Shown: positions 3,640-43,876 of the stretch, piece by piece
Layout: the number at the start of each line of letters is the position of its first letter
Position numbering within the stretch: the first letter of the stretch is position 1
Assembly: GCF_963668385.1 (NCBI RefSeq)
Contig: NZ_OY764327.1
Location: 3,940,501-4,004,500 of the forward strand
Source: an uncultured Carboxylicivirga sp.
Lineage (GTDB): Bacteria; Bacteroidota; Bacteroidia; Bacteroidales; Marinilabiliaceae
Reading direction: 5' to 3'
Length of the DNA: 64,000 nucleotides
The notes under the pieces: model-generated
Database searches by the model: none
The model's input: only the letters and a program-made list of their open reading frames with translations
What the model was told of the DNA's origin: nothing
Made by a program: the position numbers and the translations under genes

Positions 3640-6516
3640 ATGAAAAAAGTTATATGTTTGGCACTTCACTTGGTTGTGCTGCTAAATTTGTATGCCGAAA
3701 AAGCACCAGATGCTCTAATACTGAAAACTTACAAATTAAAAAATGGATTAACAGTATACTTGAATCACGATGCTACAGCAAATTCAGTTATGGGAATGGT
3801 TGTAGTTAAAGGAGGAAGTAAGCGCGATCCGGCAGATGCCACTGGTATTGCTCACTATTTCGAGCACATCATGTTTAAAGGTACTACGCAATTGGGTACT
3901 ACCGATTATCCTGCAGAAAAAGTTTATTTAGATAGTATAGCCGCTCAATATGAGTTGTTAGGCCAAACAAAAGATGATAAAAAACGATTGGAAATCCAGT
4001 TGAAGATTAATGATTTATCGGTAAAAGCCTCGGAATATGCTATCCCTAATGAATTTGATAAGCTGATTAAGAAAATAGGTGGAGATCATTTAAATGCCTT
4101 TACTTCACAGAATCAGATTGCATACATGAATAGTTTCCCTGCAAACGAAATGGAAAAATGGCTTGATATATATAGCCAGCGTTTTCAGGAGCCAGTGTTT
4201 CGTTTGTTTCAGTCGGAGTTGGAAACTATTTACGAGGAAAAGAATATGTATGCCGATGACATGACAACTCCACTTTTCGAGGATTTTATGAAAGAATTAT
4301 TTGCTGGTACTCCATATGGGGATCAAACAACTTTAGGTACAGCTGAACATTTAAAAAATCCATCATTAAAGAAGATGGAAGAATACTATCATACCTATTA
4401 TGTGCCCAACAATATGGCTTTGATCTTATGTGGTAATTTCGACGAGCAAACAACACCCGAGTTAATTGAACAGAAATTTGGAGTATTAGAATCTAAACCC
4501 TTACCAGAACAGAAGAAGTTTGAATTAACCCCATTTAAGGGACGAGTGCAAAGTAAACATCGACTGTTACCTATACGGGTGGGGTTAATAGGTTTTCATA
4601 CGGTTCCGGTTAATCATCCTGATTATAATGCCTTGGAAGTTTGCCAGAGTGTACTTTCTAATTATTCTACTGGTTTGTTAGATCAATTGGTTGATGATAA
4701 TAAGTTGATGGCTGCAGAAATTGAGTCGATGTCGTATGATGATTTAGGAAGTAGTATGCTTCTGTATGTACCTAAATTAGTTGGCCAATCATTATCAAAC
4801 GCAGAGAAATTAGTGATGGCTCAGATAGATAGTGTGAAAGCAGGACACTTTAATGATTCGTTGCTAAAGGCTGTAAAGCTTGAAATGATTAGAAGAAATC
4901 AGCAAAGATTGGAAGATTCGCGCTATAGAGCTTATTACATTGGTGATGTTTTTGTGAATGGTGAAAACTGGGATGACAAAGTTTTTTATGCTGATAAGAT
5001 CGATGCCATAACAAAAGAAGATGTGGTTGCTGTGGCGAATAAGTACTTTGGCGATAACTATTTGGTATTTCAATCGCGTATGGGGTTTCCTAAAAAAGAT
5101 AAGGTGAAAAAGCCCCCTTATAAGCCTGTTAAACCTTCTAATACCGAAAAACATTCAGAGTACTTTGATCAGATTGCTAATATGCCAAGCCTTCCTTCCG
5201 AACCCCATTTTATTACTGAAGGAGAAGATTTTGTAAAAGGAAAGTTAAATGATGAGGTTGAATATTACTATGTAAATAACCCTATTAATAAGGTATTTTC
5301 GCTACGTTTCTCTTATAATGTCGGAACCATTGAAGAGGGCAAATTATCTATGATGTCGTATGCATTGGGTTATTGTGGCGCAAAAGATATTAGTTATACC
5401 GACTTTAAAAAGAAAATGCAGGAGCTCGGTTCTGATTACTACTTTTATGCCAACGACAATAAGTTAACTGCTTATGTTACCGGATTAGAAACGAATGTTA
5501 CCGAAACCATGAAGCTGATGAATCAGCTTTTATCAAATCCTGTTTTAGATGAAAAGCAAAAAGATAGAATGGTGAAGGAAATGAAGGTTGAGAAAAAATT
5601 TGACCGTAAAGATGTTTCTTATCAGTCTGATGCTTTGAAAGACTATGCTTTGTACGGTCTTAAATCGCCGGAATTACTAGATCCAAGTCTTAAGGAAGTA
5701 AAGAAAACAGAGGTGGATGAAATAATAAGTATGCTGAATAAGGTATTAAAACGAAGTATGGATCTGCATTATGTCGGAACTATTGGTGAAGATCAGTTTG
5801 TGAAACAAGCCAAAGAGAATTTAAGCTGTTTAAATCATCTTGAAGGTAAATCTGAATTTTTGGCTCGTAAAATCAATACCAACAACGAGAATGTGATTTA
5901 CTTTTTAAATAATAAAAAGGCAGTACAATCTCATATTAATATAACAATTGTAGGAGAGGATAATAAATTGGAAAATACTGTTCCGGTAAGGCTTTTCAAT
6001 AGTTATTTTGGAGGAGATATGAGTTCAATAGTATTTCAGGAAATTAGAGAGTATCGATCGTTGGCTTATGGAGCAAGAGGAAGTTTTCGTTTACCTTTCG
6101 ACAGAACTCAGCCTGGGTATTTTACCGGATGGATGACTACACAAGCCGATAAAACTAACGAAGCCGTCGATACTTATATTGGACTTATCAACGATATGCC
6201 ACAATATCCAAATCGTATGGATGATGTAAAAAGCAATCTTATAATGAGTGTCAACAATAATCGCCCATCGTTCCGTTATATTTCAAATAGTGCTTCGTAT
6301 TGGAAATATTTAAATACCAATACCGATCCTCAAAAAGATTTGGTGAAAGGGTATGAATCAGCCTCGTTTGATGATGTTGAGAAACTTTACGAACACGAGA
6401 TTAAAGGTCGTAAGATGATCATCAATATTGTTGGTGATAAACGTAAAATTAATTTAGACGAGTTAAGAAAAATAGGTAAAGTAATTGAAGTTAAAACATC
6501 TGATATTTTCAATTAG
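3640..6516 (+). CDS. Secreted M16 family zinc metallopeptidase
   Basis: The reading frame extends upstream to a TTG at 3571, but the ATG at 3640 is preferred because it begins a clear signal peptide (MKKVICLALHLVVLLNLYA). From that start the protein is 958 residues. The inverted zinc motif HYFEH is at residues 72-76 (HXXEH), with the downstream glutamate region SELETIYEEKNMY supplying the third ligand. The length and the second, motif-less half (from about residue 500) fit the two-domain pitrilysin/insulinase architecture, which closes around unfolded peptides. It is probably periplasmic and degrades peptides. It is transcribed alone. Confidence 0.93.
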   Translation: MKKVICLALHLVVLLNLYAEKAPDALILKTYKLKNGLTVYLNHDATANSVMGMVVVKGGSKRDPADATGIAHYFEHIMFKGTTQLGTTDYPAEKVYLDSIAAQYELLGQTKDDKKRLEIQLKINDLSVKASEYAIPNEFDKLIKKIGGDHLNAFTSQNQIAYMNSFPANEMEKWLDIYSQRFQEPVFRLFQSELETIYEEKNMYADDMTTPLFEDFMKELFAGTPYGDQTTLGTAEHLKNPSLKKMEEYYHTYYVPNNMALILCGNFDEQTTPELIEQKFGVLESKPLPEQKKFELTPFKGRVQSKHRLLPIRVGLIGFHTVPVNHPDYNALEVCQSVLSNYSTGLLDQLVDDNKLMAAEIESMSYDDLGSSMLLYVPKLVGQSLSNAEKLVMAQIDSVKAGHFNDSLLKAVKLEMIRRNQQRLEDSRYRAYYIGDVFVNGENWDDKVFYADKIDAITKEDVVAVANKYFGDNYLVFQSRMGFPKKDKVKKPPYKPVKPSNTEKHSEYFDQIANMPSLPSEPHFITEGEDFVKGKLNDEVEYYYVNNPINKVFSLRFSYNVGTIEEGKLSMMSYALGYCGAKDISYTDFKKKMQELGSDYYFYANDNKLTAYVTGLETNVTETMKLMNQLLSNPVLDEKQKDRMVKEMKVEKKFDRKDVSYQSDALKDYALYGLKSPELLDPSLKEVKKTEVDEIISMLNKVLKRSMDLHYVGTIGEDQFVKQAKENLSCLNHLEGKSEFLARKINTNNENVIYFLNNKKAVQSHINITIVGEDNKLENTVPVRLFNSYFGGDMSSIVFQEIREYRSLAYGARGSFRLPFDRTQPGYFTGWMTTQADKTNEAVDTYIGLINDMPQYPNRMDDVKSNLIMSVNNNRPSFRYISNSASYWKYLNTNTDPQKDLVKGYESASFDDVEKLYEHEIKGRKMIINIVGDKRKINLDELRKIGKVIEVKTSDIFN

Positions 6517-36567: not shown

Positions 36568-38251
36568 ATCGGTTTCCGAGAAAAAAGTTGTTAAAACTTT
36601 AGTTGATATATGTTTGGCAGAAGGATTGAAGGAAGTAGTAATTTCACCCGGTTCGAGAAATGCACCGTTGACGATTACTTTTGCTGCACATCCAGAATTT
36701 AATTGTTATAGTGTGGTTGATGAGCGTAGTGCAGGTTTTTTTGCCTTGGGGATAGCTCAGCAAACACGTAAGCCGGTTGCATTGGTTTGTACTAGTGGCT
36801 CGGCTTTATTGAATTATGCTCCGGCTCTTTCCGAAGCGTTTTATCAGAATATTCCTTTGATGGTAATTAGTGCCGATAGACCAATGGAGTGGATTGATCA
36901 AGGTGATGGTCAAACCATTCGTCAGGTCGGAGCCCTAGATAATGTGGTGAAGTATTCGTGTAATATACCTACCTATCTTGAAGAAAATGATTGGTATGTG
37001 AAGCGTTTGGTAAGTGAAGCATTCTATAATTGTATGAATCGGAAACCTGGTCCGGTGCATATTAATATGCCTTTGCGCGAACCCTTGTATGGAAAAACAG
37101 TACATCCCGAAGATAAAATCAGAACTATTCATCAATATCCGGCAGAATATCGATTGTCAGATTCTCAGGTAAAAGAGTTATCCGCAGTCTGGAATCAATC
37201 AGACAGTATTCTGATATTGGTTGGATCATTGTTTCCATCATCGCAATTACATGAGTTGTTAAACCAGTTATCTGGTTTTGAACAGGTGGTTATTTTAACT
37301 GAAGTGGGTTCCAATATTCAAGGTTCACAAATTATAGGTGGAATAGATAAGGTTGTTTCAACCATTACAGAGGAGGAAATATACTTTTATAAGCCAAGCC
37401 TATTAATTACCATGGATGGTGCTGTTGTATCAAAGATGGTGAAAAAGTTTTTACGCAGTTATCCTGCCAAATACCATTGGCATCTAAGTTCAGTGAATCG
37501 TCATTTGGATACATATAAGCAGTTAACTGCAAGTATTGAAGCTGAGCCACTCGATTTCTTTCAGCAGTTATTACCTGTATTGGAATCGAAGAAAAGTCGT
37601 TTTAGAACAACTTGGCTTAATCGACGAGAAAGATCAGAAAAGCATCATGCCGAGTATTTAGATAATGCTCCCTGGAGTGATTTAAAAGTATTTGAAAAGC
37701 TGGAACAGAAGTTACCAAAAGAGTATATGTTGCAGTGGGGTAATAGCTCAGCTATCCGTTATGCGCAGTTGTTTGAAGGATTTCAGAAATACGAATCTTT
37801 TTGTAATCGTGGTACCAGTGGTATTGATGGATGTACAAGTACAGCTGTAGGAGCATCGTTTATCAGCCAAAAACCAACTTTACTGATTAGTGGTGATCTT
37901 TCATTTTTATACGATAGTAATGGCTTGTGGAATAATCAACTACAACCAAATCTGAGGATTTTGGTTTTTAATAATGGAGGAGGAGGAATCTTCCGTTTTA
38001 TCCCGGGTCCATCAGATACCGATGAATTGGAAACATTTTTCGAGGCCAAACACTCCTTAAATGTGAAGCCATTGGCCGAAATGTATGGATTAAATTATCT
38101 CTTTGCATCAGATGAAGAAAGTCTTGAATTGGGATTGGATCAACTTTTTGCAGATAGTGATAAAGCAATTATTTTAGAAGTAAAAACACCTGACAAAGAA
38201 AGTGCCAGTGTGTTAAGATCATATTTTAAACGCTTAAAAGAAGAATTATGA
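36560..38251 (+). CDS. menD: SEPHCHC synthase (MenD)
   Basis: This thiamine diphosphate enzyme joins 2-oxoglutarate and isochorismate. The 563-residue length is normal. The N-terminal pyrimidine-binding domain has [20 protein letters not shown] and [20 protein letters not shown]. The ThDP-binding C-terminal domain has [19 protein letters not shown] and [18 protein letters not shown] with the GD...N metal motif. It starts inside menF and ends overlapping menB by 4 bp (ATGA). Confidence 0.96.
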
Positions 38252-39069
38252 GCGCAGTAAGCTGGACTTCTGTTAAGGAGTATGAAGATATTAAATTTGA
38301 ATTTTCCGAAGGTATTGCCAAGATAACGATTAATCGTCCAAGGGTATACAATGCTTTTCGCCCTAAGACAGTTAATGAACTGATTGAGGCTTTTGACACA
38401 TGTCGTGAACGTCAGGATGTAGGTGTCATTATTCTAACCGGAGCAGGTGACAAGGCCTTTTGTTCAGGTGGAGATCAGAACGTAAAAGGATATGGCGGTT
38501 ACATTGATGATGCCGGGGTGCCTCGTTTGAACGTATTGGATTTGCATAAGCGGATTCGTTCCATGCCTAAACCAGTGGTGGCTATGGTAAACGGATACGC
38601 TATTGGTGGAGGTCATGTTTTGCATGTGGTATGTGATTTAACCATAGCTTCAGAAAATGCTATTTTTGGTCAGTCCGGACCTAAAGTGGGTAGTTTCGAT
38701 GGTGGTTTTGGATCATCTTATCTGGCTCGTCACGTGGGGCAGAAAAAGGCACGTGAGATATGGTTTTTATGCAAGCAATATTCAGCAAAAGAAGCTGAAG
38801 ATATGGGCTTGGTAAACCGTGTAGTTCCTTTCGATCAGTTGGAAGAAGCTACCATTGAATGGTGTAAAATTATGCTGGAACGCAGTCCGATGGCTTTACG
38901 TATGATAAAACGTGGATTAAATGCTGAACTGGACGGTCAAACTGGTATTATGGAAATGGCGGGTGATGCCACTTTAATGTTTTACCTTATGGAAGAAGCA
39001 CAGGAAGGACGTAAGGCTTTTCTTGAAAAGAGAGATCCAGATTTTCAGCAGTTTCCGAAGTTTCCTTGA
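38248..39069 (+). CDS. menB: 1,4-dihydroxy-2-naphthoyl-CoA synthase
   Basis: This crotonase-fold enzyme closes the second ring of the menaquinone head group. The 273-residue product has the family blocks [20 protein letters not shown] and [19 protein letters not shown] followed by [20 protein letters not shown]. The ATG overlaps the menD stop as ATGA. The genes for MenC, MenE and the later steps are not in this operon and must lie elsewhere. Confidence 0.96.
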
Positions 39070-39082
39070 TGTTTATAATGAT

Positions 39083-39116
39083 ATTACTCCCCTTCGTTTC
39101 CTAACGAAGGGGTAAT
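39083..39116. repeat. Solitary REP-like hairpin between convergent genes
   Basis: CCCCTTCGTT (39089-39098), loop TCCT, AACGAAGGGG (39103-39112) form a perfect 10-bp stem, extended loosely by ATTA/TAAT. It is the same hairpin as unit A of the arrays at 40-41.5 kb. It occupies the spacer between menB and the convergent META-domain gene and may double as a terminator, although no T-run follows. Confidence 0.8.
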
Positions 39117-39118
39117 GT

Positions 39119-39805
39119 TTAATCTATATGTCGGGCCTCAATCACCACCTCATTACCATTAAGCAGCAGTAAGGTATTATTAAATTTATAATACGAAGTT
39201 ACTGATTGTAATGTTTTAAGGTATTCATCTTCTGTTTTTTGATTATTGCAATACATCTCTGTATTAATCATCTGTACAAAATTAATTCCGTTCCATCCTG
39301 TTGTTGCTTTTAGTTTACCATTGTAATGATTGCAAGCCGCTTGCCCCATAAAGGTCATTTCAGTTGTATTAATCTCAAGTGTTTGGTAAATTCCTTTAGG
39401 TACCTGTTTGTTATTAATGCTTATGATACTGTATATATCATAAAGATGGGTTATTTGTTGCTCTGTTGCTCGTTGTTCTGTTATATCCACTAACTCGTAT
39501 TTTATAGAAGAAGCATCAGCAGGTGGATTCTCAATATTAGTTTCCTTTACCTTGATAATATATGTTTGACCAAATTGATGATTAAAACCTTCAATATTTC
39601 CATAAAAATACTTCCATGGGCTCTCCATTTTTGATTTAACCAATAAGCAAGAAGTCGGAGCAACACCAGTACATGAGACTTTTACAGGAGCTACGTAATA
39701 TGTTTTTATATCGTAAGTACTTAATTCTGGAGCATTGATTGGTTTCTTTGCGGTTTGGCAAGATACTAGTATTAGAAAAAAGGATAGAAGTGGTAAATAT
39801 TTCAT
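39119..39805 (-). CDS. META-domain and DUF4377-like lipoprotein
   Basis: The 228-residue protein has a lipoprotein signal (MKYLPLLSFFLILVSC). The first half (YYVAPVKVSCTGVAPTSCLL, then SPWKYFYGNIEGFNHQFGQTY) fits DUF4377. The second half is a META domain, recognised by FMGQAACNHYNGKLKA and by KTEDEYLKTLQSVTSYY. META-domain lipoproteins such as HslJ are linked to stress tolerance in the envelope. Exact function is unknown. Confidence 0.9.
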   Translation of the reverse strand: MKYLPLLSFFLILVSCQTAKKPINAPELSTYDIKTYYVAPVKVSCTGVAPTSCLLVKSKMESPWKYFYGNIEGFNHQFGQTYIIKVKETNIENPPADASSIKYELVDITEQRATEQQITHLYDIYSIISINNKQVPKGIYQTLEINTTEMTFMGQAACNHYNGKLKATTGWNGINFVQMINTEMYCNNQKTEDEYLKTLQSVTSYYKFNNTLLLLNGNEVVIEARHID

Positions 39806-39957
39806 CGCTAAAATGTTTATGTTAATTTAATTCTAAACTATTATAATACCAAATCTTATGCCGTTTGTATAAGAACTGGCCTTCATTTTTAATAATGGTT
39901 GAGCTGCGTTATCAATATTTATTGATAATCATCTTTTTATCAGCTTTATTTATGCTT

Positions 39958-40494
39958 CCCTTCGTTTCCTAACGAAGGGAAATTTTTTTTATCAATTCTT
40001 ATTGATAAAGTTCAATAACATCAGTAATAAGCTATAAATACTTGCAGTAGGAATACGTAAAAATGAATTAAGAAATTTATGCTTCTCTTCATTTCCTAAC
40101 GAAGGGAAAATAGTCTCATCAATTCCTATTGATAAAGTTCAATAACATCAGTAATAAGCTATAAATACTTGCAGTAGGAATACGTAAAAATGAATTAAGA
40201 AATTTATGCTTCTCTTCATTTCCTAACGAAGGGAAATTTGTCTCATCCATTCCTATTGATAAGGTTCAATAACATTAAGTCATAAGCTATAAATACTTAC
40301 AGTAGGAATACGTAAAAATGAATTAAGAAATTAATGCTTCCCTTCGTTTCCTAACGAAGGGAAAATAGTCTCATCAATTCTTATTGATAAAGTTCAATAA
40401 AATCAGTAATAAGCTGCAAATATTTACAGTAGGAATATGATAAAATGAATTAAGAAATTCAAAACAATTAGCTCCTCGATAGGAATCGAGGAGC
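39958..40494. repeat. REP-like hairpin array, left of the RAYT gene
   Basis: Four tandem units of about 127 bp start at 39958, 40085, 40212 and 40340. Each holds hairpin A (stem CCCTTCGTT or variants, loop TCCT), hairpin B (ATCAAT, loop TCCT or TCTT, ATTGAT), a conserved spacer, and hairpin C (imperfect TTAC...GTAA stem, loop AGGA). The last unit ends with hairpin D at 40471-40494 (GCTCCTCGAT, loop AGGA). Precise A hairpins are 39958-39979, 40085-40106, 40212-40233 and 40340-40361. A related ATCAAT hairpin with loop ATTT lies at 39909-39928. No gene is present in 39806-40538. Confidence 0.9.
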
Positions 40495-40538
40495 AGGAGT
40501 TGAAAAATTGAGTTAAGTATGATAAATTTAATAATAAA

Positions 40539-41087
40539 ATGTCTTCAGAAAACTATTTAATAGGAGATCAACATGCTACATACTTTGTTACATTTACTAT
40601 AACTGATTGGATTGATGTTTTTACAAGGCTTAAGTATAAAGATTTGATTGTAGATTCTTTGAGATTTTGTCAGGATAATAAAGAGTTAAGAATCTTTGCA
40701 TGGGTACTAATGACAAATCATTTGCATATGATTTGTAAAACTGAATATCCTCAACAACTAAGTGATCTTATTCGAGATTTTAAGCAATTTACTGCTAAGA
40801 AACTTTTAAAGCTGATTGAAGAGGGTAAGGAAAGTCGAAGAGAATGGATGCTGTATCGTTTTCAATATGCAGGTAAATATGATAATAGAATTAGAAAGTA
40901 CAGATTCTGGCAAGACAAAAGTCATCCTGTTCTGATGGATAGCAATACTAAGCTTAATCAACGGTTAAACTATATCCATAATAACCCTGTAAAAGCTGGA
41001 TGGGTCTTGAATCCTGAAGATTATCCTTATAGTAGTGCCGTCAATTACTCAGGAGGTAAAGGGTTATTGGATGTAGAGTGTATATGA
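40539..41087 (+). CDS. REP-associated tyrosine transposase (RAYT)
   Basis: The 182 residues match the Y1 HUH transposase fold of the RAYT branch. The HUH motif is NHLHMI, and the catalytic-tyrosine helix is NYIHNNPVKAGWVL, with a preceding RFWQDKSHPVLMDSN. RAYTs bind and cut REP hairpins as single strands and are usually single-copy and domesticated. The flanks here support this: hairpin arrays with AGGA/TCCT loops begin within 50 bp on both sides. The reading frame is intact. It has no terminal features of an autonomous IS200/IS605 element. Confidence 0.92.
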   Translation: MSSENYLIGDQHATYFVTFTITDWIDVFTRLKYKDLIVDSLRFCQDNKELRIFAWVLMTNHLHMICKTEYPQQLSDLIRDFKQFTAKKLLKLIEEGKESRREWMLYRFQYAGKYDNRIRKYRFWQDKSHPVLMDSNTKLNQRLNYIHNNPVKAGWVLNPEDYPYSSAVNYSGGKGLLDVECI

Positions 41088-41107
41088 ATTGAAAACGCAA
41101 AACCTCC

Positions 41108-41450
41108 CCCTTCGTTTCCTAACAAAGGGAAAATTGTCTCATCAATTCTAATTGATAAAGTTCCTTAATATTAAGTAATAAGCTATAAATACTTACAGTA
41201 GGAATATGATAAAATGAATTAAGAAATTCAAAACAATTAGCTCCTCGATAGGAATCGAGGAGTAGGTCGAGGAGGTAGTAGAATTACTTTATGCTTCTCT
41301 TCGTTTCCTAACGAAGGGAAAATTGTCTCATCAATTCTTATTGATAAGTTCCTTAACATTAAGTCATCAGCTATAAATACTTACAGTAGGAATACGGTAA
41401 AATAAATTTAGAAATTCAAAATAATTAGCTCCTCGATAGTAATCGAGGAG
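41108..41450. repeat. REP-like hairpin array, right of the RAYT gene
   Basis: Two units of about 189 bp follow the RAYT gene. Each has hairpins A (41108-41129 and 41297-41318), B (41141-41156 and 41330-41345), C (about 41195 and 41385) and D (41241-41262 and 41429-41450). Hairpin A of the first unit has one stem mismatch, and D of the second has loop AGTA instead of AGGA. Compared with the left array, every unit here ends in D. No gene is present in 41088-41488. Confidence 0.9.
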
Positions 41451-41488
41451 AAGTTAGAGGAGCTAGAGTTGATTAGGATAAAGTGTTT

Positions 41489-43876
41489 TTATTCTTCATA
41501 ATACCCATGTCCATAAGAATATCGATATCCATAATTGTAACGATAATTGTATCCATAACCATAACCTTTTCTTATATTAAGATCATTTAAAAGGATACCA
41601 ACATTCTTAATCCCTTCTTCTGATACATTACGAAGAGTTTGCTCTGTAATTTTTTTGATAGAGTGATTTTGTCTTACCAAAAAGATTAAAGAATCGGCAT
41701 GACGCGCCAATAAAAATGGATCGGATACAATTCCCATTGGTGGTGTATCAATAATTATAAAATCAAACTCTTCCTTCAACTTTTTAAATAAAACTTCTGT
41801 TTTGGGAGAACTTATCAATTCCGAAGGATTAGGAGGAATATCTCCCGAAGGGATGACAGTTAAGTTATCTTGTTGATGAGGTACTTTAATTTCATCGTAC
41901 GTTGCCTTACCAATTAAATAGTTAGAAAGGCCCGTCATTCCTTTGGTTTCAACCAATTTGTTTAAGCCCGGTTTGCGAAGGTCAAATCCCAGAATCACTG
42001 TTTTTTTACCACTGATGGCTAAAGCTGCAGCAATATTGAGTGCACAAAATGTTTTGCCTTCACCAGGAATAGATGAGGTAACACTTACAATTGGACATTC
42101 AATACCTTGTGTAAGAAAATCAAGACGGGTTCTGACTCTCCTGAAACTTTCTGTAATTACCGATTTTGGATGATGTTGTACAACGTTGCTTTCTTCTTTC
42201 GAATTGTGCAATATCTGGCCAATAATTGGTTTATTAGTTAATTTGGTAACATCGTCTTCATCCAGGATTTTATTATTTAATACCTGACGAAGTCCAACAA
42301 AGGCAAGAGGTAGGAATAAGCCTATTAAGAGACTGTTTTTATAATTTCCACTTGTATTAGGTGCAATGATTCCATTGCTTTGGGCAGCTTCTAAAACCTT
42401 ATGATCAGGAGTGTTGGAAGCTTTTTGTATTTGAGATTCCGATCGTTTGCGAAGTAGAAAAGTATACACCTCGTTACTTAACTGAAATTTACGCTCTATT
42501 CCTAGTAATTTTCTTTCTGTTTCGGGTAATCCGTATAATTCTTTCTCATTTTCATTTTTTTGTGCTTCTAGTCTACTGACTGTTTCATTAATAACATCCA
42601 ATTGGCTGTTAATAGATTTTAAAAGGGTTTCAGTGGCTACTTTTATTTGTCCTTCCAACTCTCTGTTAGCCAGGTTTAAATCTTCACTAAACGAACTGCG
42701 CATTCCCAAACGTTGGGTATTGAGTTCAACAATTTGGCGTATTTGCTCCGATAGTATATCATTATCTATCTCATATTGTGCCGGTGCAATAATCTCTCCT
42801 TCAGCGAATCCGTTTGAAAAGTAGTTTTTTAAATAGTTATAATATCTGCGGGTAATTTCTATTTGAGCCATTTTTTGCTCAATTTCCTGTAATCCACTGA
42901 ATAAATATTGAGCTTTAACAGAAACACTTTGGATGCGGTTATCTGTTCTGAATTGACTTAATTCAGAGCCGGTAAGGTATAATGAGTCTGAAATAACTCC
43001 CAATTGATCTTCAATAAATTTGATAGTATTGGTAGCAATCTGATTTTTTTGCTCCAGATTATTTTGAATAAAAACTTTTGCAAGCTGATTTAGAAAAATA
43101 GTATTTTTAAGATTGTTTTTTCCTGTTACTGAAACACGTATAATAGATGAGCTTTCGTTTGCTCTGAATGTTCTAAGTGTTGATTTATATCGGGATGCAA
43201 TATTTAAAGGGTGATTAAAAATAAAATACATCTCCTGATTAGAAGAGCTGGTTCCTCTATAATTTTCAATTTTAAAACGTGCCCAAGGTAAATTAACTAC
43301 TTCTCCAAAATGGAAGGTTTGTTCAAAGTTGATTGGTCCGGTACCCGATCCATTTCTGTTATCTTTATATAAATATGAACCTGCATTTTCGGTATGAACC
43401 TTTATTCTGTATTCTTTTTTATTGATGAACTCAAGGTAAATAGGAGTATTGAGGATCTGTTGGTGCAACGAGTCAAATTCGACTTTAAAAGGTTCATCAT
43501 GATAAACCTCAGTGTGTTTCATCCTGCCCTGAATAAAATAACTTAAATGAAAATCCAGTTGATCAACCGTTTCTTTTATTACATCCCATGAGGTAAGAAT
43601 GGCCATTTGATTTTCCATGTTTTGTTGACCTGGTGTAAGACCAAAGCCTTCCATCATATTACTATTGGGCATCTTGTCACCTCTTTCTTCTATCAGTAAA
43701 GAAATAGATGCTCTGTATGTTGGAAGAGTATAACGATGAATGAAAAAAACAATCGTTAAGCATATTGGAATTGTAATAGCAAACAACCACCAGAAATGTA
43801 ATAAGTCGAATAAGAAGCGTTTGGTGTCGAAACTAAATCCCGTTGATTGATTGTTATTCGGTTGATTCTGTGCCAC
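41489..43876 (-). CDS. Wzc-type polysaccharide co-polymerase and tyrosine autokinase
   Basis: This 795-residue inner-membrane protein controls chain length and export. The N-terminal Wzz domain has one membrane helix (LLHFWWLFAITIPICLTIVF) and a second at about 500-520; a long coiled coil lies between. The BY-kinase domain has Walker A SIPGEGKTF (about residue 602), A' VILGFDLRKPG (about 627) and Walker B DFIIIDTPPMG (about 707). The last 25 residues are a tyrosine cluster with eleven tyrosines, the autophosphorylation site. It is 6 bp downstream of the export lipoprotein gene and forms one operon with it. Confidence 0.94.
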   Translation of the reverse strand: MAQNQPNNNQSTGFSFDTKRFLFDLLHFWWLFAITIPICLTIVFFIHRYTLPTYRASISLLIEERGDKMPNSNMMEGFGLTPGQQNMENQMAILTSWDVIKETVDQLDFHLSYFIQGRMKHTEVYHDEPFKVEFDSLHQQILNTPIYLEFINKKEYRIKVHTENAGSYLYKDNRNGSGTGPINFEQTFHFGEVVNLPWARFKIENYRGTSSSNQEMYFIFNHPLNIASRYKSTLRTFRANESSSIIRVSVTGKNNLKNTIFLNQLAKVFIQNNLEQKNQIATNTIKFIEDQLGVISDSLYLTGSELSQFRTDNRIQSVSVKAQYLFSGLQEIEQKMAQIEITRRYYNYLKNYFSNGFAEGEIIAPAQYEIDNDILSEQIRQIVELNTQRLGMRSSFSEDLNLANRELEGQIKVATETLLKSINSQLDVINETVSRLEAQKNENEKELYGLPETERKLLGIERKFQLSNEVYTFLLRKRSESQIQKASNTPDHKVLEAAQSNGIIAPNTSGNYKNSLLIGLFLPLAFVGLRQVLNNKILDEDDVTKLTNKPIIGQILHNSKEESNVVQHHPKSVITESFRRVRTRLDFLTQGIECPIVSVTSSIPGEGKTFCALNIAAALAISGKKTVILGFDLRKPGLNKLVETKGMTGLSNYLIGKATYDEIKVPHQQDNLTVIPSGDIPPNPSELISSPKTEVLFKKLKEEFDFIIIDTPPMGIVSDPFLLARHADSLIFLVRQNHSIKKITEQTLRNVSEEGIKNVGILLNDLNIRKGYGYGYNYRYNYGYRYSYGHGYYEE

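Follow-up and report, generated by a model that had tools for sequence, protein, structure and literature searches.

A RAYT gene between arrays of paired hairpins lacking a GTAG foot in an uncultured Carboxylicivirga sp.: a probable REPtron of the Bacteroidota RAYT class

The RAYT gene and the hairpin arrays

The window, i.e., the whole stretch of 64,000 nucleotides that was analysed, corresponds to positions 3940501-4004500 of a 6.27-Mb single-contig genome (G000). It contains a gene for a REP-associated tyrosine transposase (RAYT) located between arrays of hairpins; the frame 40539-41087 is uninterrupted, which confirms the preliminary description of the gene as intact. The features of the locus, in window coordinates, are the following:

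39089-39112, plus strand: A-type hairpin with the foot ACT, standing alone between menB and the DUF4377 gene
39909-39928: B-like hairpin TTATCAAT-ATTT-ATTGATAA at the left edge
39948-40074: array unit 1, A-B-C and degraded E, without D
40075-40201: array unit 2, A-B-C and degraded E, without D
40202-40329: array unit 3, A-B-C and degraded E, without D
40296-40318, minus strand: hairpin C of unit 3, TTACGTA-TTCC-TAC-bulged T-GTAA
40330-40509: array unit 4, A-B-C-E-D
40338-40363, plus strand: outer hairpin A of unit 4, with TCCT as its loop and GCT as its foot
39956, 40083, 40210, 41106 and 41295: starts of the other array copies of A
40373-40388, plus strand: inner hairpin B of unit 4, ATCAAT-TCTT-ATTGAT, left-arm partner of A
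40446-40461, minus strand: inner hairpin E of unit 4, TGAATT-TCTT-AATTCA as read on this strand, right-arm partner of D
40471-40494, minus strand: outer hairpin D of unit 4, minus-strand loop TCCT, foot CCT
40539-41087, plus strand: RAYT gene, 182 aa, with HUH motif H61-L-H63, W124-Q125, catalytic Y145 in YIHNNP, and SS165-166
41098-41278: array unit 5, A-B-C-E-D
41215-41230: second perfect copy of E
41241-41262 and 41429-41450: other copies of D
41287-41466: array unit 6, A-B-C-E-D, with E altered

The RAYT scored 115 bits against the NCBIfam REP-associated tyrosine transposase model NF047646 (cut-off 80) and 31.5 bits against Pfam Y1_Tnp (cut-off 23); the score against NF033573, 24.6 bits, is below the cut-off of 55. 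Its best PDB match is TnpArep, 4er8 (E 5.7e-5), and the closest named relative found is the RAYT of Carboxylicivirga linearis FB218 (83% identity), dN/dS between the two being 0.088 for codons 1-122. All 99 aligned relatives have H61 and H63, and Y145 is conserved in 96 of the 97 that have a residue at this position. AlphaFold, run on ten sequences, gave a weak model (mean pLDDT 61).

Subclass 2.6 of the TnpA_Y1 proteins, corresponding to RAYT group 5, is characterized by a long HUH-to-Y spacing (median 82 residues) and, in its row of Table 1, by the motifs NH[LIV]H, WQ and YIH[QN]NP and a length of about 179 aa (PMC6006769). The RAYT of the window has NHLH, WQ and YIHNNP, 182 aa, and a spacing of 82 residues between H63 and Y145. 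Motifs, length, spacing and phylum fit its assignment to Quentin subclass 2.6 / Bertels group 5, for which it is a candidate member. The tyrosine motif Y---Q of IS200/IS605 is absent, YIHNNP being present instead. RAYTs are considered domesticated transposases retained over long periods (PMC8049555).

Six array units were found, four on the left and two on the right, as described earlier: three units of 127-128 bp and one longer unit precede the gene, and two units of 188 bp follow it. In the reported order, with A-B-C three times, then a unit with D on the left and two on the right, E had been overlooked, and the full unit is A-B-C-E-D. Its outer hairpins, A and D, have stems of about 10 bp, and B and E are 6-bp hairpins located about 10 nt inward of A and D. 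The stem of E (plus strand TGAATT-AAGA-AATTCA) is perfect only in units 4 and 5, both of which contain D. Units 1-3, without D, have an E with a degraded right arm, and in unit 6, where D is present, the left arm of E is altered. The B-like hairpin at the left edge is possibly a relic.

The opposite orientation of A and B relative to C and D, proposed earlier, is supported. The tetraloops assigned to these hairpins were found in part: TCCT is the loop of A in 6 of 6 copies but of B in only 2 of 6, the other copies of B having TCTT (3/6) or TCTA (1/6), and AGGA is the loop of two copies of D but not of the third, which has AGTA. C had been presented as an AGGA-loop hairpin; folding of units 3 and 6 gave a weak 7-bp stem with a bulge or mismatch and the minus-strand loop TTCC. 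The sequence GTAGGA noted within C is present in all six copies.

The stems of the hairpin types had been called unrelated. A and B in the window do share little except the loop and the last T of the stem, but A (CCCTTCGTT) and D (CTCCTCGAT) are related, and the fourth pair of paired hairpins also matches above the permuted level across the family. Intermediates of the A and D stems, CCCCTCGAT or CCCCTCGTT, occur on both sides of the RAYT at relatives of 53-62% identity. The A and D stems are variants of one theme.

As judged by its structure, the full array unit is a REPIN-like element with two inverted arms, A-B on the left, on the plus strand, and E-D on the right, with its T-first loops on the minus strand. 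Inverted REP pairs dispersed between genes, typical of REPINs and BIMEs, are represented by units 4-6 and by a pair at 227.5 kb of the genome. The latter element consists of two arms, D-E and B-A, without C, and the minimal element is thus an inverted pair of double-hairpin arms, with C as an extra weak hairpin outside it. Units of 127 bp are 91% alike, so the array copies are not independent. A known RNA family was rejected, the one Rfam match being sub-threshold (25.7 vs 85 bits).

Distribution of the locus and its hairpins in the genus

The RAYT of C. linearis occupies the same site, between the DUF4377 gene and the Wzz-kinase gene. Its frame (L058:3001-3545) is broken, ending at residue 131 with the remainder matching in another frame, through either a sequencing error or decay. 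The full DUF4377-gene locus was obtained from 10 of the 14 genus genomes, with a RAYT beside it in two, G000 and G009. In the other eight, the Wzz-kinase gene adjoins the DUF4377 gene with no RAYT between them, so the whole RAYT block is either present or absent. Contig C74 of the genome G007 starts inside a hairpin array beside the Wzz-kinase gene (L276:1-492, G007:C74:1-492), and a RAYT may therefore lie beyond the contig end; the best RAYT match in this assembly is 49% identical and has another hairpin type. The 227.5-kb REPIN is common to G000, G009 and G007; in G008 and G019, the two further genomes compared base by base, the equivalent intergenic gap lacks it.

Presence or absence of the entire block agrees with the RAYT and its arrays moving together as an ordinary mobile unit of the IS200/IS605 type. 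Such a unit is nevertheless highly improbable, the least probable of the alternatives weighed, in view of the identical place and flanking genes of the block in both carrier species and the tyrosine motif YIHNNP, not Y---Q. Moreover, no second copy of the array RAYT was found in the genome, where the next best RAYTs are 43-45% identical and have other hairpins. The interpretation of the RAYT and arrays as an insertion sequence was rejected on the basis of the shared site. The patterns of the RAYT site and of the 227.5-kb REPIN fit rare movement followed by vertical inheritance, the mover not necessarily being the RAYT.

Hairpins of the TCCT type were searched for with a covariance model trained solely on hairpins at the RAYT loci of G000 and C. 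linearis; 150 of 2704 first-look candidates were scored, and the counts are lower bounds. At E<=0.05, G000 contains at least 17 rows, representing at least 15 distinct hairpins. Nine of these lie in the array and one near menB, two form the pair at 227.5 kb, and singles are located at 5826, 5829 and 5021 kb. The preliminary description had held that hairpins occurring only at this locus would speak against a REP family; at least six hairpins at five places lie beyond the array in G000. At E<=0.1, among the candidates scored in 14 genomes, at least 17 rows were obtained for G000, at least 19 for G009, which carries an 82% identical RAYT, at least 9 for G007, at least 1 in each of two other genus genomes, and 0 in nine. 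The array is seen in three of the 14 genus genomes, and TCCT-type hairpins are concentrated in these three. All 19 hairpins checked (G000, G009, G007 and G012) are located outside closed ORFs of >=80 aa, end-open ORFs being uncounted. Canonical REPs usually exceed 100 per genome (PMC2817692), a copy number above the at least 15 distinct hairpins found in G000 with 150 of 2704 candidates scored.

Two further RAYTs, 43-45% identical to that of the array, are encoded in the genome and flanked by different hairpin types. For the hairpin GCGAAGTT-TGT of one of these paralogues, four matches within about 4 kb and four dispersed matches were found at <=3 mismatches, with 0 in the control.

Other repeats were observed in the same genome. 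A 2.4-kb stretch (L038:1657-4120; G000:C1:5826156-5828619) containing a gene that we take, by eye from its sequence, to be sensor-kinase-like lies between two A-type hairpins, and the matching place of G009 (L275:1532-1563, G009:C88) has one hairpin and no gene; the stretch was possibly gained or lost between two REP copies. A palindrome of about 48 nt at L037:1100-1150 (about G000:C1:226600-226650) has many matches on both strands in several genus genomes and is another dispersed repeat family. The hairpin ACACCTCGCT-TAGA-AGCGAGGTGT with a T-first loop at L039:2028-2051 (G000:C1:4132527-4132550) is possibly a stray REP of another type.

Hairpin grammar at related RAYT loci

The first RAYT set comprised 114 loci (the window, the paralogue loci L041 and L042, and L049-L159) taken from a longer match list that included many fragments, and was reduced to 100 non-redundant loci (<90% identity). 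Within 350 nt of these 100 RAYTs, 281 strong hairpins were found, or 4.15 per kb versus 0.07 per kb in shuffled flanks; at 600-1500 nt from the RAYTs the density is 0.41 per kb, and 91 of the 100 loci have at least one near hairpin. The loop is T-first or A-last in 271 of the 281 strong hairpins, versus 48 of 85 in shuffled flanks, where a laxer threshold was used. The rest of the window outside the array contains 0.16 strong hairpins per kb, 7 of 10 being T-first or A-last in this small sample. An arm was defined as a long and then a short hairpin with T-first loops, or the mirror image, i.e., long-short on the left and short-long on the right. This arrangement was found in 142 of 213 neighbouring hairpin pairs, distributed over 64 loci, and the remaining 36 of the 100 loci have no arm under this rule.

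The agreement between the two hairpins of an arm was analysed in the first RAYT set alone, using 134 arms from 60 loci with gaps of <=15 nt; one arm per locus was drawn, and inner hairpins were permuted between loci. The same three apical pairs are present in the outer and inner hairpin in 58% of arms versus 16% after permutation (highest permuted value 32%), the fourth pair is identical in 66% versus 32%, and the whole loop in 31% versus 14%. The fifth pair is identical in 39% versus 29%, and the entire apex, i.e., two pairs and the loop, in only 14% versus 7%. When each of the 20 clusters formed at 60% identity contributed a single arm, the values were 65% versus 18% for the three apical pairs; for the loop they were 28% versus 11%, a level reached in 1.6% of permutations, and for the fifth pair 43% versus 30%, a level reached in 12%. 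Within an arm, the two hairpins resemble each other in the three or four uppermost pairs and, less strictly, in the loop; their lower stems are different. The earlier formula of different stems with the same loop accordingly survives in a general form, as an apex shared within an arm, but not as an exact tetraloop.

Foot sequences were counted with hairpins of ambiguous polarity or without full flanks left out. G[CT]T located exactly 10 nt below the T-first loop (-13 to -11) has a weight of 0.58; the mirror strand gives 0.11, and no other tested offset exceeds 0.055. Unweighted, it is present in 84 of 146 hairpins versus 12 of 146 on the mirror strand, and by 60%-identity cluster the weights are 0.62 and 0.04. 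The foot of A in the array is GCT in five of six copies, A5 having lost CT, and the feet of D are CCT or ACT. The canonical foot GT[AG]G, ending 9-13 nt from the loop, was found in 4 of 146 first-set hairpins and 1 of 34 TCCT-type hairpins. The earlier suggestion of REP-like hairpins tied to the RAYT without a GTAG-type foot is thus upheld. GTAG was rejected as the tag, GT[AG]G being nearly absent from the foot and the GTAGGA of C lying inside that hairpin.

TCCT-type hairpins of the three genomes have CT at -12/-11 in 29 of 34 cases and T first in the loop in 33 of 34, the latter count leaning toward the rule because the orientation favoured T first where possible (2 of the 34 are orientable either way by loop). 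The exact loop TCCT is present in 21 of 34, namely in 17 of 19 hairpins at the RAYT arrays of three genomes versus 4 of 15 elsewhere, where the loops are TCTT, TCCC, TCCA, TCCG, TGAA, TCGT and once ACCT; relatives have TGT, TGC, TCT and other loops. Beyond tandem copying, the loop conservation anticipated earlier therefore concerns the first T, retained in 14 of the 15 hairpins away from arrays, but not the exact tetraloop. The proposal that the tetraloop TCCT is the recognition key does not agree with this drift or with the loops of relatives, and TCCT as a key of the family was dropped, since loops vary across loci.

The foot rule derived on the first set was applied unchanged, with a hairpin threshold of 7 instead of 8, to a hold-out of 69 loci (67 non-redundant) from other orders and classes of the phylum, drawn from a longer list. 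At >=40% identity, 40 of 47 loci have a strong hairpin; the 111 hairpins found (3.37 per kb vs 0.03 shuffled) are T-first or A-last in 105 cases, and the foot weight is 0.304 versus 0.044 on the mirror strand. Below 40% identity, 12 of 20 loci have a hairpin, and 29 of 34 hairpins are T-first or A-last. The foot is nearly missing at the standard offset in these 20 loci (0.045), and G[CT]T flanks the loop on either side at a distance of 7 nt (0.364 and 0.341), so this branch needs its own description. The 7-nt position hints at a second foot geometry in the distant branch. Shorter stems, such as CCGTAGC-TCC, were observed at L232-L244, where the RAYTs are 30-37% identical. Overall, T-first loops recur in the hold-out and the foot recurs more weakly. 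Taken over more than 150 related loci, these data suggest that RAYT-associated hairpins share a loop starting with T, a short foot tag and a small partner hairpin.

Plain tandem duplication by slippage or recombination, with the shared loops inherited from one ancestral hairpin and read by nothing, would account for the likeness of the 127-bp units. Agreement of arm stems in the upper three or four pairs, as in a shortened copy of one hairpin, also accords with it. It does not account for the recurrence of T-first loops and the foot at unrelated hold-out RAYT loci, for the persistence of the foot and matched apices after 60%-identity clustering, or for the first T outliving the remaining loop away from arrays, and it is considered very unlikely.

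For the 99 of 167 loci with an oriented strong hairpin, RAYT distance correlates with stem distance: rho is 0.357, a value reached in 0 of 999 permutations. This tracking of RAYT relatedness by hairpin type bears on another reading, in which the main role of the hairpins is that of bidirectional transcription terminators or of RNA-stability elements at gene 3' ends and the RAYT is a passenger. Ten terminator-like sites were predicted in 38200-42000 versus a shuffle mean of 1.6, seven of the ten being array or menB-side hairpins, and the hairpin copies occupy intergenic gaps, several beside 3' ends. A terminator function leaves unexplained, besides the correlation, the concentration of hairpins in array-bearing genomes, the strand-specific foot and the paired inner hairpins; as the main role it is unlikely, if a little less so than duplication. 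REPs can serve both as terminator-like and as transposase-linked elements.

Proposed reading and comparison with known systems

The locus is, with a probability of roughly 0.75, a REPtron of the Bacteroidota RAYT class, in which the RAYT would bind the arms on one strand, read the first loop T, the apex and the foot, and move the elements at a low rate. Class motifs, arm architecture, T-first loops, the foot and the array-tied distribution are the observations on which this reading is based. From these we infer binding, cutting and movement by the RAYT, as well as what each signal does.

By homology with TnpA_REP and the IS200/IS605 enzymes, the RAYT should cut single-stranded hairpin DNA. Most likely, as an HUH single-strand endonuclease, it binds the folded arm on one strand only, and it would recognise polarity by T at the first loop position, by the apical pairs and, below the 10-bp stem, by a CT or G[CT]T foot. 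Loop T and apical pairs would specify strand and hairpin type in group 5, and the foot would substitute for GTAG as a guide or cut-site partner. The RAYT would then nick and move paired arms at a low rate through single-stranded DNA, which would produce arrays at the locus and a small number of copies scattered between genes. A second binding site may be provided by the inner hairpin. Recognition of the loop by the encoded transposase, as put forward in the preliminary description, is thus kept in the form of a probable reading of the shared apex and T-first loop, but not of the tetraloop TCCT.

More tentatively, at slightly less than even odds, group-5 RAYTs may use a two-hairpin address with co-varying apices, T-first loops and differing lower stems; one protein would read much the same apex twice, perhaps by dimerising or by binding twice in succession, and the G[CT]T foot would stand in for GTAG. 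Such a two-hairpin recognition mode was not found in the literature searched.

The RAYT shares protein length, motifs and phylum with subclass 2.6 / group 5 of Quentin et al. (2018, PMC6006769). Flanking hairpins of an atypical kind, lacking GT[AG]G and present in further genomic copies, are likewise described for this subclass, and both features were found for the present locus. A tetraloop-keyed REP family of Bacteroidota had been thought new; with atypical hairpins without GT[AG]G already published in 2018, the lack of GTAG does not by itself make a REP family of Bacteroidota new. The hairpins of subclass 2.6 are called atypical and weaker in the text of PMC6006769, which gives no foot, loop rule or paired arms, whereas the outer hairpins described here are strong and bound by a grammar. 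This grammar, comprising foot, loop and paired arms, appears to be new relative to the texts searched: it was not found in literature including PMC6006769, PMC8266576, PMC3733652 and PMC8049555, supplementary Table S1 of PMC6006769 being outside this scope.

In PMC8266576, the targets studied experimentally belong to GTAG-type systems of RAYT groups 2 and 3. REP annotation across Bacteroidota would become possible with a searchable grammar of G[CT]T foot, 10-bp stem, T-first loop and inner hairpin. The grammar also supplies oligonucleotides for cleavage assays on the group-5 class, for which no such assay was found in the texts searched, and a poorly described hairpin class would become easier to recognise and test. 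It also raises the question of which element replaces GTAG as the guide.

GTAG REPINs and BIMEs of E. coli and Pseudomonas have the same inverted intergenic pairs, a foot tag on one strand and a single-copy inherited RAYT. The elements of the present locus differ in the foot G[CT]T or NCT, the T-first loop, the second small hairpin in each arm, and the copy number, which is in the tens rather than the hundreds. The Stenotrophomonas TnpA_Sm REPtron resembles the proposal made here in that loop identity matters: a loop replaced by its reverse complement severely affected cleavage and compromised binding, and loop G13 was needed (PMC8266576). It differs in the key base G and the tag GTAG, and no paired hairpin is described for it in the text of PMC8266576. 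Transposases of IS608 and ISDra2 contact a loop T, the loop base conferring strand specificity (PMC8266576), and the foot tetranucleotide acts as a guide directing the cut (PMC6006769). The ends of these elements, with a loop T and a guide at the foot, resemble the hairpins described here, but IS608 and ISDra2 are autonomous insertion sequences with Y---Q transposases.
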